Source of the DNA: Burkholderiaceae bacterium | Lineage (GTDB): Bacteria; Pseudomonadota; Gammaproteobacteria; Burkholderiales; WYBJ01 | Length of the DNA: 53,246 nt | Assembly (NCBI GenBank): GCA_011525945.1 | Contig: WYBJ01000030.1 | Location: 1 to 53,246, forward strand | Direction of reading: 5' to 3' | Shown here: positions 2,562 to 49,554 of the stretch, one piece after another | Layout of the letters: every line of letters begins with the position of its first letter | Position numbering within the stretch: the stretch's first letter is position 1 | Notes under the pieces: generated by a model | Seen by the model: the letters and a program-made list of their open reading frames with translations, nothing else | Database searches by the model: none | What the model was told of the DNA's origin: nothing | Position numbers and translations under genes: made by a program

Positions 2562-2765
2562 GTGAATCAGCCCGCCGAGAACGTACTCATCGAGAAGATC
2601 AAGGGCCTTCGCCCCGAGCGCATCGCCGAGGTCGAGGACTTCGTCGATTTCCTGAAGGCGCGGGACGAGGAACGCGGCCTCACGCTGGCCGCGGGGTCGC
2701 TCGCGGAGGAATCATTGCGGAAGGTCTGGGACAACGCGGACGACGCCGACTATGACCGGCTGTGA
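2562..2765 (+). CDS. Antitoxin of a MazF/PemK-type module
   Basis: A 67-residue acidic protein reads from GTG 2562, with an AAGGAG ribosome site eight bases upstream. The core LRPERIAEVEDFVDFLKARDE and the ending KVWDNADDADYDRL are typical of the small antitoxins encoded just before PemK/MazF toxins in proteobacteria. The acidic C-terminus would occupy the toxin's RNA-binding groove. Its 3' end overlaps the toxin start by 14 bases, which couples translation so that antitoxin is made first. No DNA-binding fold is obvious, so operon autoregulation may rest with the upstream XRE protein. Confidence 0.75.
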   Translation: MNQPAENVLIEKIKGLRPERIAEVEDFVDFLKARDEERGLTLAAGSLAEESLRKVWDNADDADYDRL

Positions 2766-3090
2766 GTTCGGCGACATCGTCCTCGTGCCGTTTCCCTTCA
2801 CCGACCAGAGCACCTCGAAGAGGCGTCCCGCCGCCGTCGTGAGCTCCCAGGCCTACCACCGCGCACGCATCGATCTCATCGTCATGCCGATTACGAGCCA
2901 GGTACGCTCCGCTACCGCCTTCGGCGAAGTGCTCGTGCAGGACTGGAAAGCTGCCGGCCTTCTCAAGCCCGGTGTGGTCAAACCCGTCATCACCACCATC
3001 GAGCGATCGCTCGTGCTGCGCAAACTCGGGCGGCTTAACGACAGCACTCAGGATGCGATCAGGAAGGCAATCGCGCAGAGCGTCGGGTAA
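2752..3090 (+). CDS. MazF/PemK-family endoribonuclease toxin
   Basis: At 112 residues the protein has the standard MazF/PemK length and order of motifs. It begins FGDIVLVPFPFTDQS with the conserved G-D-I-V and the PF..TD loop, followed by KRRPAAVVSSQAY, then IVMPITSQ, and ends GLLKPGVVKPVITTIERSLV. MazF enzymes cut mRNA at short sequence motifs and arrest growth when antitoxin is degraded. The catalytic Arg (in KRRPA) and Thr (in MPITSQ) positions of the family are present, so it should be active. It overlaps the antitoxin by 14 bases and ends the three-gene operon. Confidence 0.85.
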   Translation: MTGCEFGDIVLVPFPFTDQSTSKRRPAAVVSSQAYHRARIDLIVMPITSQVRSATAFGEVLVQDWKAAGLLKPGVVKPVITTIERSLVLRKLGRLNDSTQDAIRKAIAQSVG

Positions 3091-15242: not shown

Positions 15243-16244
15243 ATGGACAACGACGTCCCGACCCCAAAAGCAAGCGTGCCGCCGGCCGAGGAGCAGGCCG
15301 TCCAGGAGGCGAAGAAGGCGGCCGCCCAAGCCGACAAGGTCAGCGCACGCAACAGTGCAGCCGTGGTTGTGCGCACGGTGGTGTTCGCCGACATCGTAGG
15401 GTCGAACGCGCTCTACCAGGCAATCGGCGACCTGCGCGCCATGAGCCTCATCACTCGTTGCCTCGTTGCCGTGGAGGAGCAGATCTATCAACACCGCGGC
15501 GAGGTCATCAAGACCGTGGGTGAAGGGGTGCTGTGCCTGTTCTCCGACGCCAATACCGCAGCAAGTGCCGTCATCGCGTTGCAACAGCGCGTGGAGCATT
15601 TCGCCGCGGACGCCGCACCTTGCTTGAGCTTGCGTATCGGGCTGCACAACGGCTCGCTGATCGAGGAACGGGGTGATGTGTTCGGCGACGGCGTAAACGT
15701 CGCGGCGCGTTTGGTGAAGCTCGCGAGTCCCGGCCAGATTCTCACCGACGCGGGTTCTCTTTCGGCCATGCGCGTAGGCTTTCGTCGTCGCGCGCGCGCG
15801 CTGGACCGGCGTCGGGTCAAGGGCAAGGCGAGCGAGATCGAAATCGTCGAGCTTGGCTGGCGCCGCCGCTCCGGCGAGCCGTTCACCACCGAGCAGGTCA
15901 CCTTGCCGGAGCGCGCGGGCAAGGCGCGCATGACACTGCGTATCGACGCGCGCGAAGTCGTGGTCGACAGTGGGCGCAGCACATTCACGATCGGGCGCGA
16001 AGCCGTCAATGACTTGGCGGTCGCGAGCCGCAAGGCATCGCGCCAGCATGCACGCATCGAATGGCGCCGGGACAAGTTCATCCTGTTCGATCACAGCACC
16101 AATGGGACTTACGTCGTGGTCGATGGCGAGCCGGAGGTCATGGTCAAGCACGAGAGCTTCGTGCTGCGAGGCCACGGCAAGCTGAGCATTGGCGAATCGG
16201 CTGCGGCACGCGGGCGCGGGGTCATCGAGTTCGAGTGCCGCTAG
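15243..16244 (+). CDS. Class III nucleotidyl cyclase with C-terminal FHA domain, atypical metal site
   Basis: This 333-residue soluble protein pairs a class III cyclase catalytic domain (about 44-205) with an FHA phosphothreonine-binding domain (about 230-330). Visible catalytic residues are Asp50 in FADIVGS, Lys90 in VIKTVGE, Asp149 in VFGDGVNVAAR, Asn152 and Arg156. The second metal Asp, normally in KxxGD, is Glu94, so activity may be weak or altered. FHA motifs GRE, SRQH and STNGTY are present. Residues 1-40 are a charged helical leader. Its sister gene follows after 7 bases, which suggests a heterodimer or a regulator/enzyme pair. ATG 15243 was chosen over 15204 because the earlier segment has no family-like sequence. 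Confidence 0.85.
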   Translation: MDNDVPTPKASVPPAEEQAVQEAKKAAAQADKVSARNSAAVVVRTVVFADIVGSNALYQAIGDLRAMSLITRCLVAVEEQIYQHRGEVIKTVGEGVLCLFSDANTAASAVIALQQRVEHFAADAAPCLSLRIGLHNGSLIEERGDVFGDGVNVAARLVKLASPGQILTDAGSLSAMRVGFRRRARALDRRRVKGKASEIEIVELGWRRRSGEPFTTEQVTLPERAGKARMTLRIDAREVVVDSGRSTFTIGREAVNDLAVASRKASRQHARIEWRRDKFILFDHSTNGTYVVVDGEPEVMVKHESFVLRGHGKLSIGESAAARGRGVIEFECR

Positions 16245-16251
16245 AGCGCAG

Positions 16252-17163
16252 ATGAGCGAAAAGTCTCCCCGGGAGCTGTTGGTGCTGTTCGCCGACATCA
16301 GCGGCAGCACGGCGATCTACGAGCAGCTCGGCGACGCGGCCGCGGTCGAGCTGATTCACGGCCTGCTCGCGCGTATGGAAGAAGAGGTGTACTTCCACCA
16401 GGGCGCGGTGATCAAGTCGATCGGGGACGAGTTGCTGTGCACATTTCCCGATGTCGTATCGGCGCTAGCCGGGGCAACCGCGATGCAGCAGCAGGCAGCC
16501 GCGGTGGAAGGCCCGGGCGGGCGCAGGCTCGCGCTACGAATCGGCATGCACTTCGGCCCCGCGCTGGAGGAGCGCGGCGATGTGTTCGGCGATGCGGTCA
16601 ACGTCGCTGCCCGGGTCGTGGAGCTGGCGCGTCCAAGCCAGGTCCTTATCACCGACCGTTGTCTCGACAAGATCCCCCTGCTTGGCAGGAGCCGTATTCG
16701 CGCCATCGACCGCATGAGCGTACGCGGGCGAAGTGCCGAGACCACCATCCTGGAAGTGATGTGGCAGCGCGGGCGATCGATCACGACCGTAGTGCCCCCG
16801 GTCCTGCGCACGCACGGGGACGCGGGTAGCGTGTTGCTGCACCATGGCGGGCGCACGTACACCGTCTCCGCCCAAGGCAACCCGTTCCTGATCGGGCGCG
16901 ATGCGAGCTGTCAGTTGGTGGTCGCCACGACCATGGCGTCGCGTCAGCATGCGAGCATCGAAGCGCGCCGCGGCAAGTTCGTGCTCGCCGACAGGAGCAC
17001 CAACGGGACTTTCGTCGTGCCCGAAGGCGGGCAGCCGATCCATCTGCGGCGCGAGGAGTTCGTCTTGCAGGGGTCGGGCTGGATGAGTTTCGGCGAGCTT
17101 CCCCGTGCCGAGGGCGAAGGCAGCGTCCGCTACGAGTTCCGAACCGCGGGGCCCAAACCCTGA
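16252..17163 (+). CDS. Class III adenylate cyclase with C-terminal FHA domain
   Basis: A 303-residue protein with the same layout as its upstream neighbour but without the leader. The catalytic domain has Asp15 in FADISGS, the adenine-selecting Lys55 and second metal Asp59 in VIKSIGDE, Asp114 in VFGDAVNVAAR, Asn117 and Arg121, so all class III residues for cAMP synthesis are in place. The FHA half shows FLIGRDASCQLVV, MASRQHASIE and STNGTFV. FHA domains bind phosphothreonine, so cyclase output is probably tied to a Ser/Thr kinase, though none is encoded in this window. The seven-base spacing indicates co-translation. Confidence 0.88.
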   Translation: MSEKSPRELLVLFADISGSTAIYEQLGDAAAVELIHGLLARMEEEVYFHQGAVIKSIGDELLCTFPDVVSALAGATAMQQQAAAVEGPGGRRLALRIGMHFGPALEERGDVFGDAVNVAARVVELARPSQVLITDRCLDKIPLLGRSRIRAIDRMSVRGRSAETTILEVMWQRGRSITTVVPPVLRTHGDAGSVLLHHGGRTYTVSAQGNPFLIGRDASCQLVVATTMASRQHASIEARRGKFVLADRSTNGTFVVPEGGQPIHLRREEFVLQGSGWMSFGELPRAEGEGSVRYEFRTAGPKP

Positions 17164-18318: not shown

Positions 18319-18540
18319 ATGGCGAGGATCGAGATCAAGTCCGAAATCACCGGCACGGTATGGCAGGTCAAATCCCAGCCCGGCGATCGCGTCGAGGAAG
18401 GCGATACGCTGATCGTGATCGAGTCGATGAAGATGGAGATCCCGGTCATCACCGAGGACGCCGGCACGGTGCAGGAGATCCTGGTGAAGGAGAAGGATCC
18501 GGTCGCCGAAGGTCAGGTCGTCGCGATCATCGACGGTTGA
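18319..18540 (+). CDS. Stand-alone biotin carboxyl carrier protein
   Basis: At 73 residues this is essentially just a biotinyl domain. It has the barwin-like beta pattern with the biotinylation motif ESMKME; Lys38 would carry biotin. GDRVEEGDTLIVIESMKMEI leads to the turn and AGTVQEILVKEKDPVAEGQV closes the barrel. Such minimal carriers serve acyl-CoA carboxylases whose biotin carboxylase lacks its own carrier domain, exactly the case for the 452-residue carboxylase at 27128. It is read alone, upstream of the divergent regulator, and so may be shared by three carboxyltransferases in this window. Confidence 0.92.
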   Translation: MARIEIKSEITGTVWQVKSQPGDRVEEGDTLIVIESMKMEIPVITEDAGTVQEILVKEKDPVAEGQVVAIIDG

Positions 18541-18612: not shown

Positions 18613-19377
18613 CTAGCCGCGTGCGGCGAGCAGCCCGACCGCCGCATCGCGTGATTCCAGCACGCGCTCGCGCGCGATGCGCTCGGCCTCAGCACCGTCG
18701 CCGGTGCGAATCGCCCTCACCAGCCTCTGCCAGCGCTGCACCGACTGTCGGCGCCGTTGCGGCGTCGACAGTCCCAGGCGTGAATAACGCGCCGTCTGCT
18801 GCTCCAGCGACGAGAGGTAGGTGCTGAGTCGCCGGTTCGGTGTCGCTCGATTGAGCAGCCGATTGATCTGCAATACGGTGTCCACGTATTGCTCGCCCAG
18901 CTCGGGCGCGCGCGCACACCGGGACAGACGCGCGACTTCGGCCTCGATGAGCGGGAGCAGCTCGCTGCGCCGGTCGCTTTCGGCAACCGAGCGGTCGCGC
19001 AGGCCGTTCAGAACCGCGCGAATCTCGAAAATTTCCTGCACCTCGTCGACGCTCAGATCGGTCACCATTGCGCCGCGCCGCGGTACGATGGTGACGAGCC
19101 CGTCCTTCTCCAGCAGGCGCAGCGCCTCGCGCACCGGCCCGCGGCTGACCGCGAACTCGCGAGCCACCTGCTCCTCGCGGACGCGCTCGCCGGGCGCATA
19201 GGCCGCATCGAGGATACGTGCTGCGAGCCGTGCCGCGATCTGCTCCGGCAGCGAGCGGGTCAGCGGCTCGATCGCGGCGGGCGGCGTGCGGGCAACGCCG
19301 CCGTCACCGCGCGCGAGCGCCCGCGGTTCGACACGCGCTGCCGCGGTGCGCGCTCGCCGCACGGGAAAAGTAGCCAT
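18613..19377 (-). CDS. GntR/FadR-family transcriptional regulator lacking FCD metal ligands
   Basis: A 254-residue regulator with a 40-residue basic leader, then a GntR winged helix: LPEQIAARLAARILDAAYAP, GERVREEQVAREFAVSRGPV and REALRLLEKDGLVTIVPRRG. The C-terminal half is an all-helical FCD ligand domain. In metal-binding FCD proteins an Asp and three His hold a divalent ion. Here the first His position reads QIN (DTVLQINRLLN), the 'EH' is RW and the last His is Arg, so ligand recognition must be metal-independent. It is divergent from the carboxyltransferase operon at 19506, with a palindrome between them, so it is the likely local repressor. Confidence 0.85.
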   Translation of the reverse strand: MATFPVRRARTAAARVEPRALARGDGGVARTPPAAIEPLTRSLPEQIAARLAARILDAAYAPGERVREEQVAREFAVSRGPVREALRLLEKDGLVTIVPRRGAMVTDLSVDEVQEIFEIRAVLNGLRDRSVAESDRRSELLPLIEAEVARLSRCARAPELGEQYVDTVLQINRLLNRATPNRRLSTYLSSLEQQTARYSRLGLSTPQRRRQSVQRWQRLVRAIRTGDGAEAERIARERVLESRDAAVGLLAARG

Positions 19378-19505: not shown

Positions 19506-21074
19506 ATGAGCTGGAGAGCAGAAGCCGAGGAAATCCATCGACGTCGTAGCCTCGCCGAGGCGTGCGGCGGGCCGGAGGCGGTGGCCAGACACCATGCCGC
19601 GGGCAAGCTCACCGTGCGCGAGCGCATCGCCGGCATCCTCGATGCCAGCTCGTTCCAGGAAGTCGGCAAGCTCGCGGGCCGCAGCCAGTATGACGCGCAA
19701 GGCAATCTGATCGGATTCGAGCCCGCCCCCTACGTGATGGGCATCGGCGCGATCGACGGCCGGCCGGTCGCAATCGGCGGCGAGGACTACACCATCCGCG
19801 CCGGCACCGGCTTCGGCAGCGACCGGCGCAAGGGCGGCCAGGGCGGATTCATCGAGGATCTCGCCTACGAGTACCGCATTCCCTTGATCAACCTGGTGGA
19901 CGGTACCGGCGGCACGGTCAACACCAGCAAGCGCAAGGGCTTCAGTGTCGTGCCCGGTTACGGCCAGGACGGCTTCGAGCGCTCGGTCGATCTGATGGGC
20001 GTGGTGCCGGTGGTGAGCGCCGTACTCGGCACCTCCGCCGGCGGGCCGTCGGCGCGCGCCATCCTGTGCCATTTCTCCGTGATGGTGCGCGGCCAGAGCC
20101 AGCTCTTCGCCGCAGGTCCGCCCGTGGTCGAGCGCAACTTCGGCGTGAAGTTGAGCAAGGAGGAACTCGGCGGCGCACAGGTGGCCGCCGATACCGCCGG
20201 CACGATAGACAACGTCGCGCAAAGCGAGCAGGAAGCATTCGACATGATCCGCCGCTTCCTGTCGTATCTACCGAGCAACGTGTGGGAGGCGCCGCCGCGC
20301 GCGAGCTGCGACGATCCGCGTGAGCGCTGCGAACAAGCGCTGCTGGAAATCATCCCGCGCAATCCGCGGCAGGCCTACGACATGCGCAAGCTCGTGGCCA
20401 TGGTGGTCGATCGCGGCTCGGAGTTCGAGATCCAGCCAAGCTTCGGCCGCGCGCTCATTACGATGTTCGCCCGCATCGACGGCCACACGGTCGGGGTGAT
20501 TGCGAACAACCCCATGTTCGGCGGCATTATGGATAGCAAGGCCGCACGCAAGCAGGGTCACTTCGTCGAGCTGTGCGACATGTTCAATGTCCCGCTCGTG
20601 TTCTTCGCCGACATCCCGGGTTTCATGATCGGAAAGGAGTCGGAGGAGAACGCGGTGCTGCGCGAAGGCGTGCGCGCGCGCTACATCGGCTTGCAGGTGA
20701 ACGTGCCGGTTTTCACGTTGATCGTTCGGCGCTGCTACGGCATGGCCGGTGGCGGTGCGATCGATCGACGCGGGCTCAACTTCAAGATCGCGTGGCCATC
20801 GGCGGAATGGGGCTCGCTGCCGCTGGAAGGCGGGGTGCGCGCGGCCTACAAGCGACAGATCGAAGCGGCGGCCGACCCGGCGCAGAAGGAGAAGGAGATC
20901 GAGGCGGAGCTCAAGCGGTTGAATTCGCCGTTCCTCACCGCGGAAGGATTCGGCATCGAGGACCTGATCGATCCGCGCGAGACGCGCCCCTACTTGTGCC
21001 GGTTCCTGCAGGCGTGTCAGCCACGTTTACGCTCTCAGGTGGGGCCGAGGCCGAAACTCGGCGTGCGGCCGTGA
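19506..21074 (+). CDS. Acyl-CoA carboxylase, carboxyltransferase subunit (divergent paralog 2)
   Basis: A 522-residue carboxyltransferase starting at ATG 19506. It begins HHAAGKLTVRERIAGILDAS, has the first crotonase-like half with NLVDGTGGTVNTSKRKGFSV, and the second with VGVIANNPMFGGIMDSKAAR, DIPGFMIGKES and CYGMAGGGAIDRRGLNFKIA. The first-half loop is TGGTVN instead of the GESSGAR/GESTGAR of the two other paralogs, and the C-terminus differs, so it probably handles a different acyl-CoA. It is the first gene of the operon behind the GntR-type regulator; the two molybdoenzymes follow after 98 bases. Confidence 0.9.
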   Translation: MSWRAEAEEIHRRRSLAEACGGPEAVARHHAAGKLTVRERIAGILDASSFQEVGKLAGRSQYDAQGNLIGFEPAPYVMGIGAIDGRPVAIGGEDYTIRAGTGFGSDRRKGGQGGFIEDLAYEYRIPLINLVDGTGGTVNTSKRKGFSVVPGYGQDGFERSVDLMGVVPVVSAVLGTSAGGPSARAILCHFSVMVRGQSQLFAAGPPVVERNFGVKLSKEELGGAQVAADTAGTIDNVAQSEQEAFDMIRRFLSYLPSNVWEAPPRASCDDPRERCEQALLEIIPRNPRQAYDMRKLVAMVVDRGSEFEIQPSFGRALITMFARIDGHTVGVIANNPMFGGIMDSKAARKQGHFVELCDMFNVPLVFFADIPGFMIGKESEENAVLREGVRARYIGLQVNVPVFTLIVRRCYGMAGGGAIDRRGLNFKIAWPSAEWGSLPLEGGVRAAYKRQIEAAADPAQKEKEIEAELKRLNSPFLTAEGFGIEDLIDPRETRPYLCRFLQACQPRLRSQVGPRPKLGVRP

Positions 21075-21172: not shown

Positions 21173-22414
21173 ATGGCGAAACGAGAGATCGAAGGCGACT
21201 GGGTGATGGGTTGGCCCGACCGCAAGCGGGCAACGCTGCTGGCGGGCAAGGACGCCGAGGGACGGGTCATAAACGGGCGCGCGCCGCTTATCGAGCTGGA
21301 AGGCTTGATCACGCCCACCGACGCCTTCTACATCGTCAATCAGCTCGAGGTGCCCGAGCCGGTCCATCCCGACGATTGGCGGCTCACGGTGGGCGGCGCG
21401 GTCGATCGTCCATTCGAGCTGGGACTGGAGGATCTGCGCAAGCTCCCGGGACGCAGCGTGCGCGCCGTGACCGAGTGCGCGGGCAACGATGCCGGTTTCT
21501 TCGACTATCTCACCAAGGGCGGCAAGAAGCCGTCGCGGCGCAATCAGCAGGACATGCAGAAGCGCGCCGAAATGCGCATCAAGGGCGCGACGCCGAGCGA
21601 GGCCGAGGTGAGCTCGGAATCGACCACGACGTGTGCGGTATCGGCGGGCGAGTTCACCGGCGTGCCGCTCATCGAGGTGTTGCAGCGAGCCGGGATCAAG
21701 AGCGCCGCGATGGCGGTGCGCGCCGAGGGCTTCGACAGCGGGCGCCCGGATCCGACCGTGCAATATCGCTCGGTCGGCACCACCGACTATCGCTACGTCG
21801 ATCCGGGCGTCATCCATTACGACAAGGGGCTGCCGCTGGAAAAAGCGCTGCATCCCGATACGCTGCTCGCCTGGGCGATGAACGGCGAATACCTCACCCA
21901 TATCCACGGCGGTCCGGTGCGTCTGATCGTTCCCGGGTGGTCCGGCAACTGGTGGGTGAAGTGGTTGCAGGCTCTCGAGGTCACCGAGCAGATGCCGCCG
22001 TGCTACCACCAGACGCACTACTTCGTTCTCGGAGAATCGGCCGACGATCCGCAGAAGAAGATGCTGACCGCGATGGGCGTGCGCTGCATCGTGACCGATC
22101 CGGTGGACGAGGATTCTCCGCTCGAAGCCGGGCGGCGGCGTGTGCGCGGGCTCGCCTGGAGCGGTGAGGGCATGATCGTTCGCGTCGAGGTGAGCTTCGA
22201 CGCCGGCGCGAGCTGGTGCGATGCCCACATCGAGCATCCGCAGGAGCGCTGGTTATGGGTGCGCTGGTCGTGTCCCTGGGATGCGCGGCCAGGTGCGTAC
22301 AAGATCATGGCGCGCGCGACCGACGAGAAGGGCCGCGTGCAGCCGCAGATACCCTGGAATTTTCAGCGCAAACTTTGCGACTGGATCGTGCCGACTGAAG
22401 TCACTGTGAGCTAG
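21173..22414 (+). CDS. Sulfite oxidase-family molybdopterin enzyme, cytoplasmic (paralog A)
   Basis: A 413-residue protein with the sulfite oxidase fold. The molybdenum ligand is Cys102 in RAVTECAGND. FTGVPLIEVLQRAGI, HGGPVRLIVPGWSGNWWVKW and a C-terminal Ig-like dimerisation domain (VRVEVSFDAGASW) follow. There is no Tat signal and no cytochrome or haem domain, unlike the periplasmic SorA/SoxC or eukaryotic enzymes, so the protein is probably cytoplasmic with an unusual electron acceptor. EtfB/EtfA are encoded downstream of its sister gene. It shares MxKREIEGDWVMGWPDRKR with that sister, three bases away, suggesting a heterodimer. The substrate need not be sulfite. Confidence 0.88.
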   Translation: MAKREIEGDWVMGWPDRKRATLLAGKDAEGRVINGRAPLIELEGLITPTDAFYIVNQLEVPEPVHPDDWRLTVGGAVDRPFELGLEDLRKLPGRSVRAVTECAGNDAGFFDYLTKGGKKPSRRNQQDMQKRAEMRIKGATPSEAEVSSESTTTCAVSAGEFTGVPLIEVLQRAGIKSAAMAVRAEGFDSGRPDPTVQYRSVGTTDYRYVDPGVIHYDKGLPLEKALHPDTLLAWAMNGEYLTHIHGGPVRLIVPGWSGNWWVKWLQALEVTEQMPPCYHQTHYFVLGESADDPQKKMLTAMGVRCIVTDPVDEDSPLEAGRRRVRGLAWSGEGMIVRVEVSFDAGASWCDAHIEHPQERWLWVRWSCPWDARPGAYKIMARATDEKGRVQPQIPWNFQRKLCDWIVPTEVTVS

Positions 22415-22417
22415 CGT

Positions 22418-23662
22418 ATGAGCAAGCGCGAGATCGAGGGTGATTGGGTCATGGGCTGGCCTGATCGCAAGCGCCTGGAGCTAAATGCGGGCAAGGATGC
22501 CGAGGGTCGCGTGCTCTCGGGCCGCACGCCGATCCTGGACCAGGAAGGTCTCATCACGCCCACCGACAGCTCCTACGTCGTCACCCAGCTCGATATGCCC
22601 GAGCCGGTGCATCCGGACGATTGGACGCTCACGCTCGGCGGAGAAGTCGAGCGGCCGTTGCGACTCAGTCTCGACGAGCTGCGCAATTTTCCAGGGCGTA
22701 GCGTGCGCGCGGTCACCGAGTGCGCCGGTAACGACGAGGGCTTTTTCGACTACCAGGCGCGCGGCATGCCGAAGCCCTCGCGTCGCTATGTGCCCGATCT
22801 CAGCCGCCGCGCTGCCATGAAGGCGGATCGCGGCACACCCGGCAATGAAGAGCTTCGGGGCGAGATGGGCAATACCTGCGCGATGAGCGGCGGTGAGTTC
22901 ACCGGCGTGTCGTTGGCGGAGCTGCTCGCGCACGCCGGACCGAAAGTCGGTGCGCAATGGGTTTGGCTCGAGGGGTTCGACCGCGGCCGCCCCGATCCGG
23001 CCGTGCAATACCGCTCGATGGGCCATGCCGACGTGGCGATCGATGACCCCGGTGTCATCCACTACGACAAGGCGCTGCCACTCGCCAAAGCACTTGACCC
23101 GGACACGCTGCTGGCATGGGCGCAGAACGGCGAATGGTTGCTGCACGTGCATGGCGCGCCGGTGCGCTGTATCGTTCCCGGCTGGTCGGGCAACTGGTGG
23201 GTGAAATGGCTCTCGCGTATCGAAGTCACGCGCGAGATGCCGCCGTGTTATCACCAGACGAAGTACTTCGTCTATGGCGCGACACCCGACGATCCGCAGA
23301 AGCCCATGCTTACCGCCATGGGCGTGCGTTGCATCATCACCGCTCCTCTGGACGAGGACTCGCCGCTCGAGCGCGGCACACACGCCATCCGCGGCCTTGC
23401 CTGGAGCGGCATGGGGCGCATCGAGCGCGTCGAGGTGAGCGTAGACGGCGGCGCGAGCTGGCGCGATGCGCATATCGAGGCCCCGCGCGAACGCTGGCTG
23501 TGGGTGCGCTGGTCGTATCTTTGGGAGGCGAATGCGCCGGGTGCGTACCGGCTGCTCGCGCGGGCCACCGACGAGAAGGGCCGAGTGCAGCCGCAGACGC
23601 CGTGGAACTATCAACGCAAGCACTTCGACGGTATCGTGCCGAGCGACGTGGTGGTGGTTTAA
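22418..23662 (+). CDS. Sulfite oxidase-family molybdopterin enzyme, cytoplasmic (paralog B)
   Basis: A 414-residue duplicate of the preceding gene. Cys102 in RAVTECAGNDEGFFDY is the molybdenum ligand, and the HGAPVRCIVPGWSGNWWVKW pocket segment and the Ig-like C-terminal domain (VEVSVDGGASW) are intact. The two copies diverge most between residues 111 and 165 (QARGMPKPSRR against LTKGGKKPSRR, then different MG-rich loops), the region near the substrate channel, so they may differ in specificity. The start ATG is three bases after the previous stop and EtfB starts two bases after this stop. Signal peptide and haem domain are absent. Confidence 0.88.
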   Translation: MSKREIEGDWVMGWPDRKRLELNAGKDAEGRVLSGRTPILDQEGLITPTDSSYVVTQLDMPEPVHPDDWTLTLGGEVERPLRLSLDELRNFPGRSVRAVTECAGNDEGFFDYQARGMPKPSRRYVPDLSRRAAMKADRGTPGNEELRGEMGNTCAMSGGEFTGVSLAELLAHAGPKVGAQWVWLEGFDRGRPDPAVQYRSMGHADVAIDDPGVIHYDKALPLAKALDPDTLLAWAQNGEWLLHVHGAPVRCIVPGWSGNWWVKWLSRIEVTREMPPCYHQTKYFVYGATPDDPQKPMLTAMGVRCIITAPLDEDSPLERGTHAIRGLAWSGMGRIERVEVSVDGGASWRDAHIEAPRERWLWVRWSYLWEANAPGAYRLLARATDEKGRVQPQTPWNYQRKHFDGIVPSDVVVV

Positions 23663-23664: not shown

Positions 23665-24471
23665 ATGCACATCGCGGTACTCGTCAAGCAGGTGCCGAAT
23701 CCGGAGTCGCTCGCTGCGGTGCTGCGCATCGACGAGGCGGTGTGCAAGATCGTGCTGCCGCCGGGTCACCCCATGGTGATGAGTCCGTTCGACGAGCAGG
23801 CGCTGGAGGCGGCGCTGCGCATTCGCGACCAGTCGGCTGCGCAAATGCGCATCAGCGCCGTCACGCTCGGACCCGAGTCGGCCCGCGCCGCGCTCAAGCA
23901 GGCGCTCGCGCTCGGTGCCGACGATGCGGTGCACGTGCTCGACGCCGCCTTCGACAGTGCCGACAGTTACTTGACGGCGCACGCGCTGGCCGCGGCGCTG
24001 CGCCGGCTCGGAACGGTCGATCTCGTCCTCGCCGGCCGCCAAGCAGCTGACTGGGATGCCGGCGTCGTGGCGCTCGGCGTAGCGGAGATACTCGATCTGC
24101 CGTCGGTCGCCTTCGCCTGCGCGGTGCAGGCGTCGAGCGAATCGGTCCGGGTCGAGCGCGTGCTGCCGGATGGATACGAGACGTTCGAGCTCGCCATGCC
24201 GGCGCTGGTCACGGTGTCGAACGAGCTGGGCGAAGTGCGCAAGCCGAATCTGCGCGAAACCATGCGGGCAGCGCGCAAGCCCGTTGCAAGCTGGAACGCA
24301 GCCGAGCTCGGATTGGACGCGCGCGAGCTTCGCGCGCGACGCAAGCTCGCGCGCCTGTACCTGCCGCAGAAACGGGCGCAGTGCGAATGGATCGAGGCCG
24401 AGACCGCGGCCGCGCGCGGCGCGCTGCTTGCGCAGCGCCTGCATGCCGAACGCCTCATCCCGAAACCATGA
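23665..24471 (+). CDS. etfB: Electron transfer flavoprotein, beta subunit
   Basis: A 268-residue EtfB. It begins MHIAVLVKQVPNPESLA, continues MSPFDEQALEAALRI (AMP-pocket helix) and GADDAVHVLD, then DLVLAGRQAADWDAG, ending near PALVTVSNELGEVRKPNLRE. ETF passes electrons from dehydrogenases to ETF-quinone oxidoreductase, carrying FAD and AMP. No acyl-CoA dehydrogenase or ETF-QO is encoded in the window, so its partner is open; the upstream molybdoenzymes are the nearest redox genes. The stop overlaps the EtfA start by four bases. Confidence 0.9.
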   Translation: MHIAVLVKQVPNPESLAAVLRIDEAVCKIVLPPGHPMVMSPFDEQALEAALRIRDQSAAQMRISAVTLGPESARAALKQALALGADDAVHVLDAAFDSADSYLTAHALAAALRRLGTVDLVLAGRQAADWDAGVVALGVAEILDLPSVAFACAVQASSESVRVERVLPDGYETFELAMPALVTVSNELGEVRKPNLRETMRAARKPVASWNAAELGLDARELRARRKLARLYLPQKRAQCEWIEAETAAARGALLAQRLHAERLIPKP

Positions 24472-25451
24472 GCGCCGACATTCTCATCGTGCCCGAGTTT
24501 GGGCAGGACGCGAGTTCGCCGGTCGTGTGCGAGCTGATCACGCTTGCGCGCCGCCTGGCGCAAAGCGCGCACGGCCGAGTCGGCGTGCTGGTGCTTGGCG
24601 CCGCAGCTCCCGAGCCCGACGCCTGGGCGGGTAGCGGCGTCGATTGCATCTACTTCGCCCGCAGCTCGGGCCTGCCTCTGCCCGAGATGCTGGTGGCAGC
24701 GGCAACCGAGGCGGCGCGCCGCGCTGCGAGCGCGATTGTGCTGTTGCCGCACACCACGGCGGGCGCCGAGCTCGCGCCGCGGCTGGCGTTTCGACTCGAC
24801 GGCGCGGTAGCGAGCGGTTGCGTCGATGTGAGCGTCGAGGCCGACAGCGTGCGCTGCACGCGCCCCTGCTATGGTGGCCTCGCGCGCGAGGTCGATGAGT
24901 TCGCGCTCGCGCCGGTCGTGGCGACGGTACGCGCCGGCATATTCGAGCGCGCGCCCGCACACGCGGGCCGTCGGCCGGAGCTGATCGACCTCGGATCGTT
25001 CGAGGCGACGCGAGCGCGGCGCATCGATCGGCGCACCGAGGCTGCCGCCGGCGCGCGGCTTGAAGACGCCGCGGTCATCGTCGCCGGGGGCCGCGGGCTG
25101 GGGGGAGCGGAGGGTTTCGATCTGCTCGCCAAGCTCGCGCGCGAGCTTGGCGGCGCCGTCGGTGCGAGTCGCGTGCCGTGCGACCTCGGCTGGTGCCCGC
25201 ACTCGTGGCAGATCGGTCTTACCGGCAAGACGGTGACACCCGAGCTCTATGTCGCGGTCGGCATTTCCGGCGCCGGCCATCATATGGCCGGCTGCGGCAA
25301 CGCCAAGACGATCGTCGCGATCAATTCCGACCCCGAGGCCGCCATCTTCCAGGACGCGCGCTTCGGCGTGGTCGGCGACTATCGCGAGGTCGTGCCGGCG
25401 CTGATCGCGCAGTTGCGCAGCTTGAACGACGCTTCCTCGCGGAAGTCGTGA
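24468..25451 (+). CDS. etfA: Electron transfer flavoprotein, alpha subunit
   Basis: A 327-residue EtfA, translationally coupled to EtfB. The N-terminal domain (ILLPHTTAGAELAPRLAFRL in consensus position, here IVLLPHTTAGAELAPRLAF) is followed by the FAD domain: IVAGGRGLGGAEGFDLLAKL, GASRVPCDLGWCPHSWQIGL, TGKTVTPELYVAVGISGAGH and AINSDPEAAIFQDARFGVVG. The GLTGKTV and SGAGHHMAG positions contact FAD. Two Cys in CDLGWCPHSW, where most EtfA have a non-Cys loop, are unusual and lie near the flavin. The next gene, a carboxyltransferase, starts 18 bases later. Confidence 0.92.
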   Translation: MSADILIVPEFGQDASSPVVCELITLARRLAQSAHGRVGVLVLGAAAPEPDAWAGSGVDCIYFARSSGLPLPEMLVAAATEAARRAASAIVLLPHTTAGAELAPRLAFRLDGAVASGCVDVSVEADSVRCTRPCYGGLAREVDEFALAPVVATVRAGIFERAPAHAGRRPELIDLGSFEATRARRIDRRTEAAAGARLEDAAVIVAGGRGLGGAEGFDLLAKLARELGGAVGASRVPCDLGWCPHSWQIGLTGKTVTPELYVAVGISGAGHHMAGCGNAKTIVAINSDPEAAIFQDARFGVVGDYREVVPALIAQLRSLNDASSRKS

Positions 25452-25469: not shown

Positions 25470-27011
25470 ATGCTGATGGCATTTGAAGCTCTACTGGAAG
25501 AATACGAGCGCCGCCGCGCCAAGGCCTTGGCGATGGGGGGCGAAGACAAGGTCGAGCGGCGCCGAGCACGCGGTCAGCTCGATGCGCGCAGCCGCATCGC
25601 CGCGCTCACCGATCCGGGAAGCTTCATCGAATCGGGCCTGTTCGGCACCTCCGGGGTCTACCCGCAAGACGCCGACGAGACGGCTTGCGACGGCAAGATT
25701 GCAGGTTTCGCCAAGATCGACGGGCGCGACGTTTGCCTGGTGGTGAACGACTTCACCGTCAAGGGCGCCTCGACCAGCGCGACCAACAGCAAGAAGGTCG
25801 GACACATGAAGCGCACCGCGACCGAGCGCGGCATGCCGCTGGTCGTGCTCGGCGAATCGACCGGCGCGCGGCTGCCCGACGCGATGGGCTCGCGCGGAAT
25901 GGGCTTGCTGCTCGGTAACGACATCACGCAGTTTCGCCGCATGCGCGAGACGCCGCTGGTGGCCGCTGCTCTCGGACCCTCGTTCGGCTCGTCGGCGTGG
26001 CTCGCGTGCTGCTCGGACTTCGCCGTGATGTTGAAGGGCTCGACCATGGCGGTGTCGAGTCCGCGCTTGATCGAAATGGCGCTGGGGGAGAAAGTCGATT
26101 TCGACAAGCTTGGCGGCTGGCGCCTGCACGCCGAGATAACCGGGCTCATCGACCGGGTGGCGGACAGCGAGGAGGAAGTGTTCGATAACATCCGGCGCTT
26201 TCTGTCGTATCTGCCGAGCCATCACAACGAAGCGCCGCCGGATGCTGCGGTCCCGGCTGGATCGGGCGAAGGCATGAACGATATCCTGTCGCTGTTGCCC
26301 GAGTCCCGCACCCAGGTCTACGACATGCGCAGGCTGGTGCGCACGATCGTGGACCGCGATTCGATGTTCGAGCTCAAGCCGCGCTTCGGCAACAGTGCGG
26401 TCGTGGCGCTCGCCCGCTTGGGGGGCAAGTCGATCGGCGTCGTCGCCAACAACCCGCTGCATCGCGGCGGCGCGCTCGACGGCAACGCCTGCCGCAAGAT
26501 CGTGGACTTTCTCGTGCTGTGCGATTCGTTCAACATCCCGCTGCTGCTGCTCGTGGACACGCCCGGCTTCGTCATCGGCACCGAGGCCGAGCGCGACGGT
26601 GCGCCAGGCAAGATCATGAATTTCATGAACGCGATGACGCTCGTGAGCGTGCCGCGCCTGTCGGTGCTGGTGCGCAAGAGCTACGGACGCGCGTATGTCT
26701 GCATGGGCGGGGGGCGCCACTCCGACGACATCGCCGCCTGGCCGACGGCCGAAGTGAGCTTCATGAGCCCGGAGTTCGCCACGACCATCGTGCATGGGTC
26801 GAAGCCCGGGGATGCGGATTTCGCCGACAAGCTCGCGCTCATTCGCCAGGACAGCGATGTCTGGGGAATGGCGTCGGTGTTTGCCGCCCAGGCCGTTATC
26901 CGGCCCGAAGAGACGCGCGATTATCTGATCCGCATGTTCGAGGTCTACCAGCTGCGCATGAGCCGGGGCGTGGGCCAACATCTCATGCGCTCGTGGCCGA
27001 CGTCTTATTGA
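25470..27011 (+). CDS. Acyl-CoA carboxylase, carboxyltransferase subunit (paralog 3)
   Basis: A 513-residue carboxyltransferase; ATG 25470 or 25476 (MAFEALLEEYERRRAKALAM) are both usable. Motifs are RARGQLDARSRIAALTDPGS, GESTGARLPDAMG, VVANNPLHRGGALDGNACRK, DTPGFVIGTEAERDGAPGK and SYGRAYVCMGGG. Length and order match paralog 1, and the WPTSY C-terminus is identical. It lies between EtfA and the biotin carboxylase, so it is the paralog most likely to form the main carboxylase complex. The acyl group is unknown; the cluster's CoA-ligase and CoA-transferase suggest an organic acid made by catabolism. Confidence 0.9.
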   Translation: MLMAFEALLEEYERRRAKALAMGGEDKVERRRARGQLDARSRIAALTDPGSFIESGLFGTSGVYPQDADETACDGKIAGFAKIDGRDVCLVVNDFTVKGASTSATNSKKVGHMKRTATERGMPLVVLGESTGARLPDAMGSRGMGLLLGNDITQFRRMRETPLVAAALGPSFGSSAWLACCSDFAVMLKGSTMAVSSPRLIEMALGEKVDFDKLGGWRLHAEITGLIDRVADSEEEVFDNIRRFLSYLPSHHNEAPPDAAVPAGSGEGMNDILSLLPESRTQVYDMRRLVRTIVDRDSMFELKPRFGNSAVVALARLGGKSIGVVANNPLHRGGALDGNACRKIVDFLVLCDSFNIPLLLLVDTPGFVIGTEAERDGAPGKIMNFMNAMTLVSVPRLSVLVRKSYGRAYVCMGGGRHSDDIAAWPTAEVSFMSPEFATTIVHGSKPGDADFADKLALIRQDSDVWGMASVFAAQAVIRPEETRDYLIRMFEVYQLRMSRGVGQHLMRSWPTSY

Positions 27012-27127: not shown

Positions 27128-28486
27128 ATGTTCCAGAAGGTTCTCGTCGCCAACCGCGGTGCCGTCGCCGCCCGCGTGTTGCGCGCGCTCCACCAGCTTG
27201 GCATCCGTTCGGTGGCGGTGTACTCGGAAGCCGACGCGCGTGCGCCGTATCTGGAATTGTCGAGCGAGGCGCACCCGATCGGGCCGTCGAGCGCGCGCGA
27301 CAGCTACCTCAACCAGGACACGCTGCTGGCGCTGCTCAAGCGCACGGGCGCCGATGGCCTGCATCCCGGTTACGGCTTCCTTGCCGAGAATGCCGCGTTC
27401 GCGACCCGGGTGAACGCGGCCGGCGCGCGTTTCATCGGCCCGAGCCCGCGCTGGATCGACGCCATGGGGCACAAGACGCGCGCGCGCGAGCTCGCGGTCG
27501 AGTACGGCATGCCGACCGGACGCGGCAGCGGCGTGCTGCCGGCCGAGCCGGAAGCGATCAAGGCGGCCGCGCGCGCAATCGGCTATCCGGTGCTGGTCAA
27601 ACCCGCCGGCGGCGGTGGCGGCATCGGCATGTTGCCGGCGAACGACGAGACCGAGCTGATCGCGGCGGTGGAGCGATCGAGCTCACTCGCCGCGCGCGGC
27701 TTCGGCAGCGCCGAGGTCTACCTGGAGCGCCTGGTGGCGCGGCCGCGGCACGTCGAATTCCAGGTGCTGGGCGATGCGCACGGCAGCCTGCAGCACCTGT
27801 TCGAACGCGACTGCTCGGTGCAGCGCCGGCACCAGAAAGTCATCGAAGAGGCGCCGGCGCCCAATATTGCGCGCGATGCGGTGCAGGCGATGGCCGACCG
27901 GATCGCGGCCACGGTGCGCAACATGGGCTACGATAACATCGGCACGGTCGAGATGCTGATGGACGCCGACGGCGAGTTCAGTTTTCTCGAGATGAACACG
28001 CGCTTGCAGGTGGAGCACGGCGTGACCGAGGAAGTGACCGGGGTCGACCTGGTGAAGGCGATGATCCGAAGTGCGGCGGGCGAACGGCTTGCGGCGTTTC
28101 TCCCGCGCGATGTCGCGATCAGCGGGCATGCCATTCAGGCGCGGGTATACGCCGAGGATCCGAAGAATTTCTTCCCCTCGCCCGGCAAGCTCAACGTGTT
28201 CCGTCCGCCCGAGGACGCGTCGATTCGCATCGAGACCGGCTATGCCGAGGGTCGCGAAGTCACGCCGTTCTACGATCCGATGCTCGCCAAGGTGATCGTC
28301 AAGGCAGCCTCTCGCAGCCAGGCGATCGAGCGCCTGGTGCAGGCGCTGCAGGCGTTCGATATCCAGGGTGTCAAGCACAACATCCCGGCCGTCGTCGCGA
28401 TCCTTAAGTCCGACGCCTTCGGTTCGGGCAACGTGCACACCGGCATCGTGAACGAAGTGCTGGCGCGGCCAAAGGCGAAAGGGTGA
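27128..28486 (+). CDS. Biotin carboxylase subunit of acyl-CoA carboxylase
   Basis: A 452-residue ATP-grasp enzyme that carboxylates biotin on a carrier with ATP and bicarbonate. It aligns well with E. coli AccC numbering: Lys116 (GHKTRAR), Lys158 in PVLVKPAGGGGGIG, Glu275 (TVEML), Glu288 and Asn290 (FLEMNTRLQVEH), Arg292 and Glu296. The N-terminal VLVANRGAVAARVLRAL and HPGYGFLAEN complete it. There is no biotinyl domain at the C-terminus, so it needs the separate carrier at 18319. The GTGA/TGA overlap with the next gene shows coupling to the acyl-CoA synthetase genes. Confidence 0.93.
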   Translation: MFQKVLVANRGAVAARVLRALHQLGIRSVAVYSEADARAPYLELSSEAHPIGPSSARDSYLNQDTLLALLKRTGADGLHPGYGFLAENAAFATRVNAAGARFIGPSPRWIDAMGHKTRARELAVEYGMPTGRGSGVLPAEPEAIKAAARAIGYPVLVKPAGGGGGIGMLPANDETELIAAVERSSSLAARGFGSAEVYLERLVARPRHVEFQVLGDAHGSLQHLFERDCSVQRRHQKVIEEAPAPNIARDAVQAMADRIAATVRNMGYDNIGTVEMLMDADGEFSFLEMNTRLQVEHGVTEEVTGVDLVKAMIRSAAGERLAAFLPRDVAISGHAIQARVYAEDPKNFFPSPGKLNVFRPPEDASIRIETGYAEGREVTPFYDPMLAKVIVKAASRSQAIERLVQALQAFDIQGVKHNIPAVVAILKSDAFGSGNVHTGIVNEVLARPKAKG

Positions 28487-28488
28487 GC

Positions 28489-29202
28489 ATGACGGCGGAC
28501 GATCTGATACGCAGTGCCCGCGCCGCCGGCCGTTCGTCGCTGGACGAAAGCGCGGGCAAGCGCCTGCTTGCGCAGTTCGGCATCGCGGTGCCGAGCTCGG
28601 TCATGGTGGCGCCGGACGAGCCCGCGGGGCCGAAGCTCACGGGGCTCAGGGCGCCTTTCGTCGTCAAGGTGGTATCGCCCGACATCCTGCACAAGAGCGA
28701 TGCCGGCGGCGTGCGCGTCGGCATCACCGACAGTACGCAAGTCGATGCCGCGATTCGTGCCATGTGCGCGCATCCCGTCATTGCGAAGGCGCGCCTGGAC
28801 GGCTTTCTCGTCGAGGAGATGGCGCCGCCCGGCGAGGAGCTGGTCGTCGGCGGCTTGAAGGATCCGCAGTTCGGTCCGCTCGTGATGGTGGGCCTGGGCG
28901 GGATCTTCGTCGAGGTGATGCAGGACGTTGCCTTTCGCATCGCTCCGATCGAGCGCATCGATGCGCACGAGATGCTCTCGGAGCTCAAGGCGGCCGCGTT
29001 GCTCGACGGCGCGCGCGGGCGCGCACCGGTTTGCCGCGAAGCGCTCATCGATGTGTTGCTGCGTGTTGGCGGCGCGGGCGGCTTGTTGCTGCGGCTGCAC
29101 GACGATATCGCCGAAGCCGACTTGAATCCCGTGATTGTTTCGGAGCGCGGCGCGGTGGCGGTGGACGCGCGCTTCATCCTGACCCCGGAGGGGGGCAAGT
29201 GA
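28489..29202 (+). CDS. NDP-forming acyl-CoA synthetase, beta (ATP-grasp) subunit
   Basis: From ATG 28489 (or GTG 28483) this is about 237 residues of the ATP-grasp_5 type: SAGKRLLAQFGIAVPSS, then FVVKVVSPDILHKSDAGGVR (nucleotide-binding Lys and the HKSD..GGV motif), LVGG..PQFGPLVMVGLGGI and an EADLNPVIV metal/ATP end. The beta half of ADP-forming acetyl-CoA synthetase-like enzymes has just this length when encoded separately. The alpha half is the next gene, 76 bases downstream. Together they activate a carboxylic acid to its CoA ester with ATP or GTP. Confidence 0.87.
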   Translation: MTADDLIRSARAAGRSSLDESAGKRLLAQFGIAVPSSVMVAPDEPAGPKLTGLRAPFVVKVVSPDILHKSDAGGVRVGITDSTQVDAAIRAMCAHPVIAKARLDGFLVEEMAPPGEELVVGGLKDPQFGPLVMVGLGGIFVEVMQDVAFRIAPIERIDAHEMLSELKAAALLDGARGRAPVCREALIDVLLRVGGAGGLLLRLHDDIAEADLNPVIVSERGAVAVDARFILTPEGGK

Positions 29203-29278: not shown

Positions 29279-30736
29279 ATGAGCACAGCAAACGACATCC
29301 TCGCAAGCTTCGAGCCGCTGTTCGCGCCGAAGACGATCGCCGTGGTCGGCGCGTCGGCGACTACACTCGCTGCGGCCAACACGTTCATCCGCCGCATGCG
29401 CGAGTTCGGCTATCCGGGGCGCATCTTTCCGATCCATCCGAACGCGGATGCGGTCGATGGCCTGCCCGCTTTCCGCTCGGTGGCGCAGACGCCCGAGCCG
29501 ATCGACTACCTCTACATCTCCGTGGCGGCCAAACACGTGCCGAAGATGCTGGCGGAGGCGAACGGGCGCGTGCGCTTTGCGCAGGTCATCTCCAGCGGCT
29601 TCGGCGAAGTCGACGAAGGCAAGGCGCTGCAGGAGGATCTGGTTCGCGCCGCGCGCGCCGGAGGGGTTCGGCTGCTCGGCCCCAACTGCCTGGGCATGTA
29701 TTCGCCGCGTGGACGGGTGACATTCGTCGAGGGCGGCTCGGTCGAAGTGGGTACGGTGGGAGTGATCTCGCAAAGCGGGGGGCTCGGGACCGACATCGTG
29801 CGCCGCGGCCAGGCGCGGGGGCTGCGTTTCTCGGCTGCGGTTACCGTGGGCAACAGCGCCGATTTGGGTCCCGCCGATCTGCTCGAGTATTACCTGGCCG
29901 ATCCGCAGACGCGCGTGATCGGTATCTACCTGGAAGCGGCGCGCGACGGGCGGCGCATGTTCGAGCTGCTGAAGGCCCAGCGCGCCGCCAAGCCGGTCGT
30001 GATCCTGAAGGGCGGGCGCACGCAGCAGGGCCGCATGGCCGCCGCCTCGCACACCGGCGCGCTCGCCGGCGACGACCGCGTCTGGGTCGCGCTATCGCGC
30101 CAGACCGGTTGCCTGCTGGTCGATACGCTCGATCAGTTTCTGGACACGCTGCTCGTCTTCCAGGCGCTCACGCCGCGCGCGAGCGCGCCCACGCGCGAGA
30201 TCGTCATGTTCGGTAACGGCGGCGGCACGAGCGTGCTGGCGACCGACCTGTTCTCGCGGCTGGGCCTGCAGGTCACGCCGTTCGCCGCGACGACGCTGGC
30301 CGCGTTGCGCGCACTGAAGCTGCCGCCGGGCTCGTCCATCACCAACCCGATCGACACACCCGTGGGCACGCTGCAGCAGGACGAGGGCCGGATCGCGGAG
30401 AAGATCCTTGACGCCATCTTTGCGAATGCCGATCCGCAGGCGCTTGTCATGCATTTGAACATGGCGGCATTCGTCGGCCGCACCCGCGGCGACGTATTGG
30501 GTAATCTCATGCAGGCTGCACTCCGGGTCCAATCGCGCTACCCGGGCCGCGCGCATTTCGTGCTCGCATTGCGTTCCGACGGCTGGCCCGAGGTGGAGGC
30601 GCGCAAGCGGGAGTTCCGCGACCAGGCGCTCGCGCTCGGCATCCCGGTGTACGACGAGATGATGAACGTCGGCTGGGCGCTGGCGGCGCTGGCGCAACAC
30701 GAGCGCTTCGTGGCGAGCCGGCGCGCGTCGCCATGA
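29279..30736 (+). CDS. NDP-forming acyl-CoA synthetase, alpha (CoA-binding) subunit
   Basis: A 485-residue subunit: a CoA-binding Rossmann domain at 16-140 (KTIAVVGASATTLAAANTFI, IFPIHPNADAVDGLPAFRS, then LGPNCLGMYSP), followed by succinyl-CoA ligase-like domains (VGVISQSGGLGTDIVRR). His258 in AAASHTGALAGDD is the expected phospho-histidine that ferries phosphate between acid and nucleotide. The ACDs of this type act on acetate, aryl acetates or branched acids; the substrate here is not clear. Stop and next start overlap by four bases. Confidence 0.9.
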   Translation: MSTANDILASFEPLFAPKTIAVVGASATTLAAANTFIRRMREFGYPGRIFPIHPNADAVDGLPAFRSVAQTPEPIDYLYISVAAKHVPKMLAEANGRVRFAQVISSGFGEVDEGKALQEDLVRAARAGGVRLLGPNCLGMYSPRGRVTFVEGGSVEVGTVGVISQSGGLGTDIVRRGQARGLRFSAAVTVGNSADLGPADLLEYYLADPQTRVIGIYLEAARDGRRMFELLKAQRAAKPVVILKGGRTQQGRMAAASHTGALAGDDRVWVALSRQTGCLLVDTLDQFLDTLLVFQALTPRASAPTREIVMFGNGGGTSVLATDLFSRLGLQVTPFAATTLAALRALKLPPGSSITNPIDTPVGTLQQDEGRIAEKILDAIFANADPQALVMHLNMAAFVGRTRGDVLGNLMQAALRVQSRYPGRAHFVLALRSDGWPEVEARKREFRDQALALGIPVYDEMMNVGWALAALAQHERFVASRRASP

Positions 30737-31956
30737 CGCCGGCCGCATCCGAGCGGACCGGGCCGCGCCCACTCGACGGCGTGCGCGTATTGGAGCTCGG
30801 CACCACGATCGCCGGCCCCTTCTGCGGGCGGCTGCTGGCGGACTTCGGCGCCGAGGTGGTCAAGGTCGAGCCGCCCGAAGGCGACCCGATCCGGGGCGCG
30901 GGCAAGGTCCACGCCGGTGTATCGCTCTATGCGACCAGCATTTTGCGCAGCAAGCGGCTGATCGCCGCTGATCTGCGCAAGCCCGAAGCGCAGGCACTCA
31001 TGCGCACGTTGGTGCCCAAGTTCGACATCGTGATCGAGAACTTCCGCCCCGGTGGTCTGGAGAAGTGGGGGCTCGGCTACGCCGATTTGGCGCAGCTCCA
31101 TCCCGCGCTCGTGATGGTGCGAATCTCCGGCTATGGCCAGAGCGGGCCGTACAGCGCTCGCCCGGGCTACGGGGTCGTCTGCGAAGCGGTCGGGGGTCTG
31201 CGCTACATCACGGGCGACCCCGACCGGCCGCCGGCGCGCGCCAACATCGGGCTCACCGACTACATCACCGGGCTTTACGCGGCATTCGGCGCCATGATGG
31301 CGCTGCGCCACCGCGAGCGCACCGGCCAGGGCCAGTATGTCGACACGGCGCTTTACGAGTGCGCGTTCAGCTTCATGGAGCAGCATGTGCCGGCGTACGA
31401 GAAGTTGGGCGCGATCGCCGAGCGCACCGGCGCGGGCATGGCGGATTCGTACGTGAACAATACCTTTTGCACCAGCGACGGCGTCTACGTGCACGTGCAG
31501 GGGTCGCAGTCGAACAGCTTCCGCCGCCTGTGCGAGGCGATGGGTCGGCCCGAGCTTGCGACCGATGTGCGCTTCGCCGAACGCCGCGCCCGCAATGCGC
31601 ACGGCGCCGAGATCGACGCGATCGTCGGGGCGTGGGTGGGCGCGCGCGCTTACGCCGAGCTCGAGCGCGCCTTCACGCCGCACGGGGTTACCTTTACGCG
31701 CATCTACACCATGGCGGATATTTTTTCCGATCCGCATTTCGCCGCGCGCGAGATGTTGGTTGCGGCCGCGCACGACACCTTGGGGACGGTGACCGTCACC
31801 GCACCCGTGCCGCGCCTTTCGGCCACACCCGGTCGCGTCGACCGCGCCGGTGGCGCGGTCGGCCGGGATACGCGCTCGGTGCTGCACGAGATGTTGGGGC
31901 TGGATCAAGTCCAGATCGACGCACTGGCGCGCTGCGGCGCAATCGCCTGCGCCTGA
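30733..31956 (+). CDS. Class III CoA-transferase (CaiB/BaiF family)
   Basis: A 407-residue protein in the family of formyl-CoA:oxalate and carnitine CoA-transferases. It begins PLDGVRVLELGTTIAGPFCG, has ADFGAEVVKVEPPEGDPIRG, DLRKPEAQALMRTLVPKFDI, VIENFRPGGLEKWGLGY and SGYGQSGPY. The catalytic Asp is Asp176 in GLTDYITGLYAA, a conserved position. It would swap CoA between an acyl-CoA donor and an acid acceptor, an alternative to the ATP-dependent ligase just upstream. It overlaps that ligase gene by four bases, so both are co-translated. Donor and acceptor are unknown. Confidence 0.9.
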   Translation: MTPAASERTGPRPLDGVRVLELGTTIAGPFCGRLLADFGAEVVKVEPPEGDPIRGAGKVHAGVSLYATSILRSKRLIAADLRKPEAQALMRTLVPKFDIVIENFRPGGLEKWGLGYADLAQLHPALVMVRISGYGQSGPYSARPGYGVVCEAVGGLRYITGDPDRPPARANIGLTDYITGLYAAFGAMMALRHRERTGQGQYVDTALYECAFSFMEQHVPAYEKLGAIAERTGAGMADSYVNNTFCTSDGVYVHVQGSQSNSFRRLCEAMGRPELATDVRFAERRARNAHGAEIDAIVGAWVGARAYAELERAFTPHGVTFTRIYTMADIFSDPHFAAREMLVAAAHDTLGTVTVTAPVPRLSATPGRVDRAGGAVGRDTRSVLHEMLGLDQVQIDALARCGAIACA

Positions 31957-32154: not shown

Positions 32155-32562
32155 ATGCCGGATGCATTGAAAGCGGGACTGAAGGGAACTTTCACGCTCA
32201 AGATCGAGCGCAAGCACTGCACTTCGCGCGGCGGCCCCTGGGTGTTCGCGACTCCCGAGATGGTGCGCTTCTGCGAGCTTTCGTGCCACGAGCTGGTCGC
32301 GCCGCACCTGGCTGCGGGCGAGAACTCGGTGGGTGCGGTCGTGCACATCAAGCATATGGCGCCGACCCTGGAGGGCCAAACCGTGCGCGCCGAGATCGAG
32401 CTCACCGAGGTCGATCGGCGGCGGCTCAAGTTCAAGATCGAGCTCAGCGATGAGCTCGATCGCATCGGCGAGTGCGAGCACGAGCGCTTCGTGATCGATG
32501 TCGGCAAGGCGGGCGAGCGGTTGCGCGCGAAAGCCAACACGCTTGGCATCGCGCTTCCCTGA
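32155..32562 (+). CDS. Hotdog-fold thioesterase, FlK-like
   Basis: A 135-residue single-hotdog protein. It resembles fluoroacetyl-CoA thioesterase FlK: VFATPEMVRFCELSCHELVA carries the T..M...E helix start, then VGAVVHIKHMAPTLEGQTVR (family His strand and 'P...G..V' loop) and a C-terminal ERFVIDVGKAGERLRAKA. Enzymes of this group hydrolyse or hold short acyl-CoA thioesters. It lies about 200 bases after the CoA-transferase in the same direction, fitting a proof-reading or product-release role. A TATAAGGAG motif just before ATG 32155 provides the ribosome site. Confidence 0.82.
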   Translation: MPDALKAGLKGTFTLKIERKHCTSRGGPWVFATPEMVRFCELSCHELVAPHLAAGENSVGAVVHIKHMAPTLEGQTVRAEIELTEVDRRRLKFKIELSDELDRIGECEHERFVIDVGKAGERLRAKANTLGIALP

Positions 32563-49334: not shown

Positions 49335-49554
49335 CCCGCGGTTGCTTTGCGCAACTCTTGTCAGTACGATTTCGAGCGAACCCGCCTGGTGTCCGATGCC
49401 TGCACGCCGTTACCGATTACCCACCGCGCAGCGAGGAGCCGCGTCCATTGCGGCCCGACACGAATGATTGCTCGTCCCGAATGAGTACCGTGGCCCCGAG
49501 GTCGCGACGGCCCGAACGCGCGCGAGCGCTGTATTTGCGGCCGATGGTCCGGCC

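Follow-up and report, generated by a model that had tools for sequence, protein, structure and literature searches.

Two adjacent genes for proteins of the sulfite oxidase (SUOX) fold, lying immediately ahead of a pair of ETF genes, raise the question of what reaction such proteins catalyze and with which partner they exchange electrons. The genes are found in a Burkholderiaceae bacterium (assembly GCA_011525945.1, contig WYBJ01000030.1), in a stretch of 53,246 nucleotides that was analyzed as a whole and that we refer to as the window. To our knowledge, SUOX enzymes rely on haem, cytochrome or oxygen, and all known clients of ETF are flavoproteins, whereas the client proposed here, which we call Suox, is a molybdopterin enzyme. 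Our searches of the open-licence literature turned up no description of an ETF paired with a SUOX enzyme. The reading that we favor, with a probability of roughly 0.6, is that Suox is an ETF-dependent oxidoreductase of the SUOX family which probably acts on a substrate other than sulfite and passes its electrons to ETF, then to ETF-QO, and on to quinone.

SuoxA and SuoxB are cytoplasmic proteins of the SUOX fold

SuoxA (21173..22414, + strand, 413 aa) and SuoxB (22418..23662, + strand, 414 aa) share 69% identity. Both match the Pfam profiles Oxidored_molyb (E ~1e-41) and Mo-co_dimer (E ~1e-15), PF00174 and PF03404, above the curated cut-offs, and by profile match the SUOX fold is complete in each. 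The initial annotation had described them as tandem cytoplasmic paralogs with neither a haem domain nor an adjacent cytochrome gene, and this description holds: there is no Tat motif in the N-terminus of either protein, no haem domain profile match in either, and no CXXCH motif in the window ORFs from 13 to 33 kb. An alternative TTG start at 21155 would give SuoxA a longer ORF, but it is unnecessary because the SuoxA orthologues share the same start Met, and for the same reason no signal peptide has been lost to a mis-called start.

The family alignment reveals an insertion of ~37 residues after the Cys loop, which carries an invariant KPSR motif, together with a family-specific N-terminal REIEGDWVMGWPDRKR block and the invariant residues Arg97, His243 and His245. 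An AlphaFold2 model derived from a 27-row alignment (pLDDT 61, pTM 0.63) was too poor for placement of the pocket or for a fold search. Elsewhere in the genome (L063, 5440-5979) there is a 179-aa SUOX-domain protein that scores below the SoxC and MsrP cut-offs. A second molybdenum enzyme of the window, unrelated to Suox, is encoded at 49468-52801, where FAD and Mo subunits of the xanthine dehydrogenase/CO dehydrogenase type lie beside a TctC receptor gene. The window also holds a PemK/MazF-like toxin gene at 2562-3090, ahead of which a small ORF may encode the antitoxin.

The Suox family is rare and distinct from known SUOX enzymes

Scanning the proteins of 84,980 species genomes gave 29 Suox loci, nearly all from uncultured Betaproteobacteria/Burkholderiales, plus three from Alphaproteobacteria. 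Genome searches added a single-copy locus from the window's own genus (G001) and one from a small Burkholderiales genome (G008). We consider the family rare, since the window's own genome was the only match when 369 genomes from the class and 398 from the phylum were searched; among the best matches listed in a plasmid search, there were only relatives of ~38% identity or less. The family MAG records L035, L037, L041, L043, L047 and L051 are titled Bordetella parapertussis group, a species name that is probably a mislabel.

In the phylogeny, the Suox proteins group together in a single clade (support 100/99), which sits on a long stem and is separate from SoxC, from SorA-type and SorT-type proteins, and from cytoplasmic homologues of Deinococcus and Rhizobium. 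SorAB and SorT/SorU, the nearest solved structures by sequence, share with Suox the Mo-Cys, the catalytic Tyr, and the SUOX-fold and dimerization domains, but they are exported and work with a haem protein, whereas Suox is cytoplasmic and accompanied by ETF. SuoxA falls far below the NCBIfam equivalog cut-offs of SorA and SorT (178/600 and 153/570 bits, respectively). The best NCBIfam match of both copies is SoxC, of SoxCD, although here too the scores of the two copies, 212 and 214 bits, reach only half the TIGR04555 cut-off of 420. SoxC and Suox both lack the Arg of the CxGNxR loop that follows the Cys, but SoxC differs in possessing a signal peptide, a retained substrate Arg, and a nearby cytochrome gene; no soxD-type cytochrome gene is found beside Suox. 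The cytoplasmic “sulfite oxidases” of Deinococcus and Rhizobium plasmids (33-38% identity) resemble Suox in having no cytochrome gene nearby, but keep both active-site Arg positions and have neither the KPSR insertion nor an adjacent ETF. The Suox proteins belong to the SUOX fold family and fall short of those defining features of SorA, SorT, and SoxC that were tested. One of these plasmid genes, from Deinococcus (L069, 2935-4032), lies within a 4-hydroxyphenylacetate degradation operon (hpaB, hpaD, hpaH, hpaI), and is another case of a SUOX homologue in an organic-acid pathway.

Suox genes are linked to ETF genes in three unrelated contexts

EtfB (23665..24471, + strand; PF01012) begins 2 bp past the SuoxB stop, as initially annotated, and EtfA (24468..25451, + strand; PF00766 and PF01012) overlaps it by 4 bp. 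Profile search finds ETF domains in these beta and alpha subunits and an FAD-binding domain in the alpha subunit. The pair appears to be a second, dedicated ETF, as the window's genome encodes a separate canonical ETF pair as well as one ETF-QO. Across the family, an EtfB gene lies directly 3' of Suox on the same strand at every locus with readable downstream DNA (28/28), at a gap of 2-332 bp; three further loci end at a contig edge and stand outside this count.

The Suox-EtfB-EtfA trio occurs in three unrelated genomic contexts. In Betaproteobacteria, it is flanked by the two carboxyltransferase genes in an operon for a biotin-dependent acyl-CoA carboxylase; CT1 is upstream of Suox at most loci and CT2 downstream of EtfA. 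In the window, CT1 (19506..21074, + strand; PF01039) is of the propionyl-CoA carboxylase beta type (PDB 1vrg, E 8e-94) and CT2 (25476..27011, + strand; PF01039) is the second carboxyltransferase. The operon also encodes a biotin carboxyl carrier protein (18319..18540, + strand), which is conserved across loci and whose orthologue at L034 matches Biotin_lipoyl, a biotin carboxylase subunit identified by Pfam (27128..28486, + strand), and an NDP-forming acyl-CoA synthetase with an ATP-grasp (beta) subunit (28483..29202, + strand; PF13549) and an alpha subunit (29279..30736, + strand; PF13607, PF13380; PDB 2csu, 4xyl). A CoA-transferase, of Family III in the window (30733..31956, + strand; PF02515), or a 3-hydroxyacyl-CoA dehydrogenase/enoyl-CoA hydratase is often added, and a GntR/FCD regulator (18613..19377, - strand; PF00392, PF07729) may control the operon. 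This gene content points to carboxylic-acid/acyl-CoA metabolism. In Alphaproteobacteria, the trio stands alone between ilvC/DUF924 and leuA, and in G008 it stands alone beside an ETF-QO gene.

Two neighbors of the operon in the window deserve mention. An FlK-type thioesterase (fluoroacetyl-CoA thioesterase family) is encoded just past the CoA-transferase gene, at 32155-32562, and the triad loci gave no orthologue match to it above threshold. The region 15246-17163, immediately ahead of the carboxylase operon, encodes two tandem proteins conserved in the genus, the first with adenylate/guanylate cyclase and FHA domains and the second similar to it by sequence.

The usual client of ETF is an acyl-CoA dehydrogenase. 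A query that recovered its positive controls found none, either across the window or at any of the triad loci, and a cytochrome partner is represented across the 28 triad loci by only two chance-looking CXXCH ORFs. The pattern is reversed for 15 related SUOX genes of other Burkholderiales (five above the SoxC cut-off, one SorT, one SorA-like and the rest untyped): each of these lies within 1.5 kb of a CXXCH ORF, and none has ETF genes beside it. Suox sequence distances also correlate with those of EtfB and EtfA (r of 0.80 and 0.76, with 0/2000 permutations as high), as against an r of 0.14 for CT2, which is a rough control since CT paralogues may be mixed. The Suox-ETF correlation owes something to shared ancestry.

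It could be argued that Suox and ETF are mere operon neighbors, in which case the ETF would serve acyl-CoA dehydrogenases encoded at a distance, of which the window's genome has 42 matches, and Suox would use another acceptor or, with oxygen, no protein acceptor at all. The acyl-CoA operon of Betaproteobacteria would suit this explanation, and plant sulfite oxidase indeed works without a protein acceptor (PMC10574614). We consider it improbable, given that in Alphaproteobacteria and in G008 the trio is kept although the acyl-CoA operon is not there, that a canonical ETF is already present in the window's genome, and that the triad loci themselves contain no acyl-CoA dehydrogenase. In G008, the only ETF detected is the Suox-linked one (the genome is 68% complete), and since three acyl-CoA dehydrogenase-like proteins are encoded elsewhere there, this ETF may serve them as well. 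The ETF-QO gene of G008 is divergent and lies ~0.9 kb upstream of the trio; ETF-QO was found in 9 of the 10 triad genomes tested. The earlier proposal of ETF as the redox partner of Suox has thus gained strong genomic support from the gene order, the three contexts, and the lack of a cytochrome partner or local acyl-CoA dehydrogenase, and transfer between the two is what the genomic evidence suggests.

The sulfite-binding site is altered throughout the family

Cys102, which the initial annotation had rightly noted in both copies, aligns with the Mo-ligand Cys and is invariant in 30/30 orthologues, as is Tyr283 (SorA Tyr236). The other two of the three sulfite-site residues are gone. At the position of SorA R55, Suox has Val in 29 of the 30 orthologues and Ile in the remaining one, and the His two residues beyond it (SorA His57) is replaced by Gln in all 30. 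All nine aligned SUOX relatives, SoxC among them, retain this substrate Arg. We take SorA Arg55 to be equivalent to SorT Arg78 and human Arg160, judging from spacing, position, and what is generally known about this family; SorT Arg78 stands 49 residues ahead of the Mo-Cys, the same spacing as SorA R55. The human R160Q variant still contains Mo, yet its activity is below 5% (PMC10574614). In SorT, Arg78 also forms a salt bridge to a haem propionate, and the main path of electrons to the cytochrome runs through it (PMC4760952). Loss of the Arg therefore fits a change of electron partner, and since it would affect both sulfite binding and haem docking, it is to be expected if substrate and partner have both changed.

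The initial annotation's view of these proteins as sulfite oxidases does not fare well in this comparison, as the substrate Arg and the neighboring His are lost in SuoxA, in SuoxB, and in every orthologue. Loss of the substrate Arg from both copies is the outcome that the initial annotation itself had named as counting against its proposal. On sequence grounds, sulfite is a doubtful substrate, and the true one is probably something else. A genuine sulfite oxidase with ETF as acceptor would need to hold the charge of sulfite by other residues, and the family does offer new invariant basic residues near the Cys loop, R97 and those of KPSR, which could functionally replace the lost Arg in a protein that keeps the fold, the Mo-Cys, and the catalytic-site Tyr. 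However, the universal loss of Arg and His, the near-inactivity of the human variant, and the retention of the Arg in all of the aligned relatives make such an enzyme quite unlikely in our view.

The direction of electron flow

The adjacency of genes gives no direction to the electron flow between Suox and ETF. SUOX-family reductases exist, for instance MsrP (YedY) and eukaryotic nitrate reductase, and the flow could in principle be reversed, with ETF, reduced by NADH or by quinol via ETF-QO, driving Suox as an S-oxide or N-oxide reductase. Chemistry would allow quinol to drive the reduction through ETF-QO, and the solved structures closest to EtfB are those of bifurcating, NADH-linked ETFs. 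Such ETFs have a Gly in EtfB that makes room for a second FAD (PMC12630350). In the window, this position of the beta-FAD-admitting Gly is occupied by Trp, and among 25 family members it varies (W in 10, G in 6, other residues in 9), which leans somewhat against a bifurcating ETF. In aerobes, moreover, ETF normally flows towards ETF-QO, and the catabolic operon context favors oxidation. We regard the reductase as unlikely, and the flow from Suox through ETF to quinone as the likelier direction, because ETF-QO is present in the genomes and the operon is catabolic.

The tandem arose by duplication within one genus

SuoxA and SuoxB form separate clades. Three species of a single genus have both, while a fourth has A only. 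The tandem is, as judged from the phylogeny, a recent duplication confined to that genus, and a single copy is the norm. Where the single-copy orthologues are uniform, the fixed differences between A and B include positions 107, 124-126, 150-152, 183, 236, and 282, which lie around the Cys loop, the insertion, and the Tyr. At these positions, SuoxA keeps the ancestral pocket residues of the single-copy orthologues and SuoxB is derived; at the C-terminus, A is the derived copy. The divergence near the active site that was first noted is thus borne out, and suggests a changed specificity or an accessory role of SuoxB. The heterodimer proposed with it is possible but unnecessary, given that most genomes have a single copy.

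A proposed ETF-linked redox unit and its implications

We propose that Suox and EtfB-EtfA would act as one redox unit. Cytoplasmic Suox would oxidize a substrate, probably other than sulfite, in a pocket where the conserved Mo-Cys and Tyr have acquired new surroundings, and would hand the electrons to a dedicated ETF with FAD, from which they would pass via ETF-ubiquinone oxidoreductase to the quinone pool. The exit of electrons via ETF, and ETF-QO where present, would be common to Suox and to the ETF-linked dehydrogenases of acyl-CoA, dimethylglycine, sarcosine, and trimethylamine. In Betaproteobacteria, the operon suggests that the unit may serve a carboxylic-acid/acyl-CoA pathway with a biotin-dependent carboxylase, and in one genus a duplication has given a second copy, B, altered around the pocket. 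That Suox represents a new SUOX subfamily, with ETF as its physiological electron partner and the sulfite-binding site exchanged for a new substrate, seems to us slightly better than an even bet.

If true, a molybdoenzyme feeding ETF would give electrons a new way into the quinone pool and the SUOX family a new reaction, and would tie the chemistry of molybdopterin to the respiratory branch of ETF and ETF-QO. Where such genes of uncultured bacteria from soil and fresh water carry the annotation “sulfite oxidase”, that annotation would then be wrong, which would matter for inferences about the sulfur cycle that are drawn from metagenomes.
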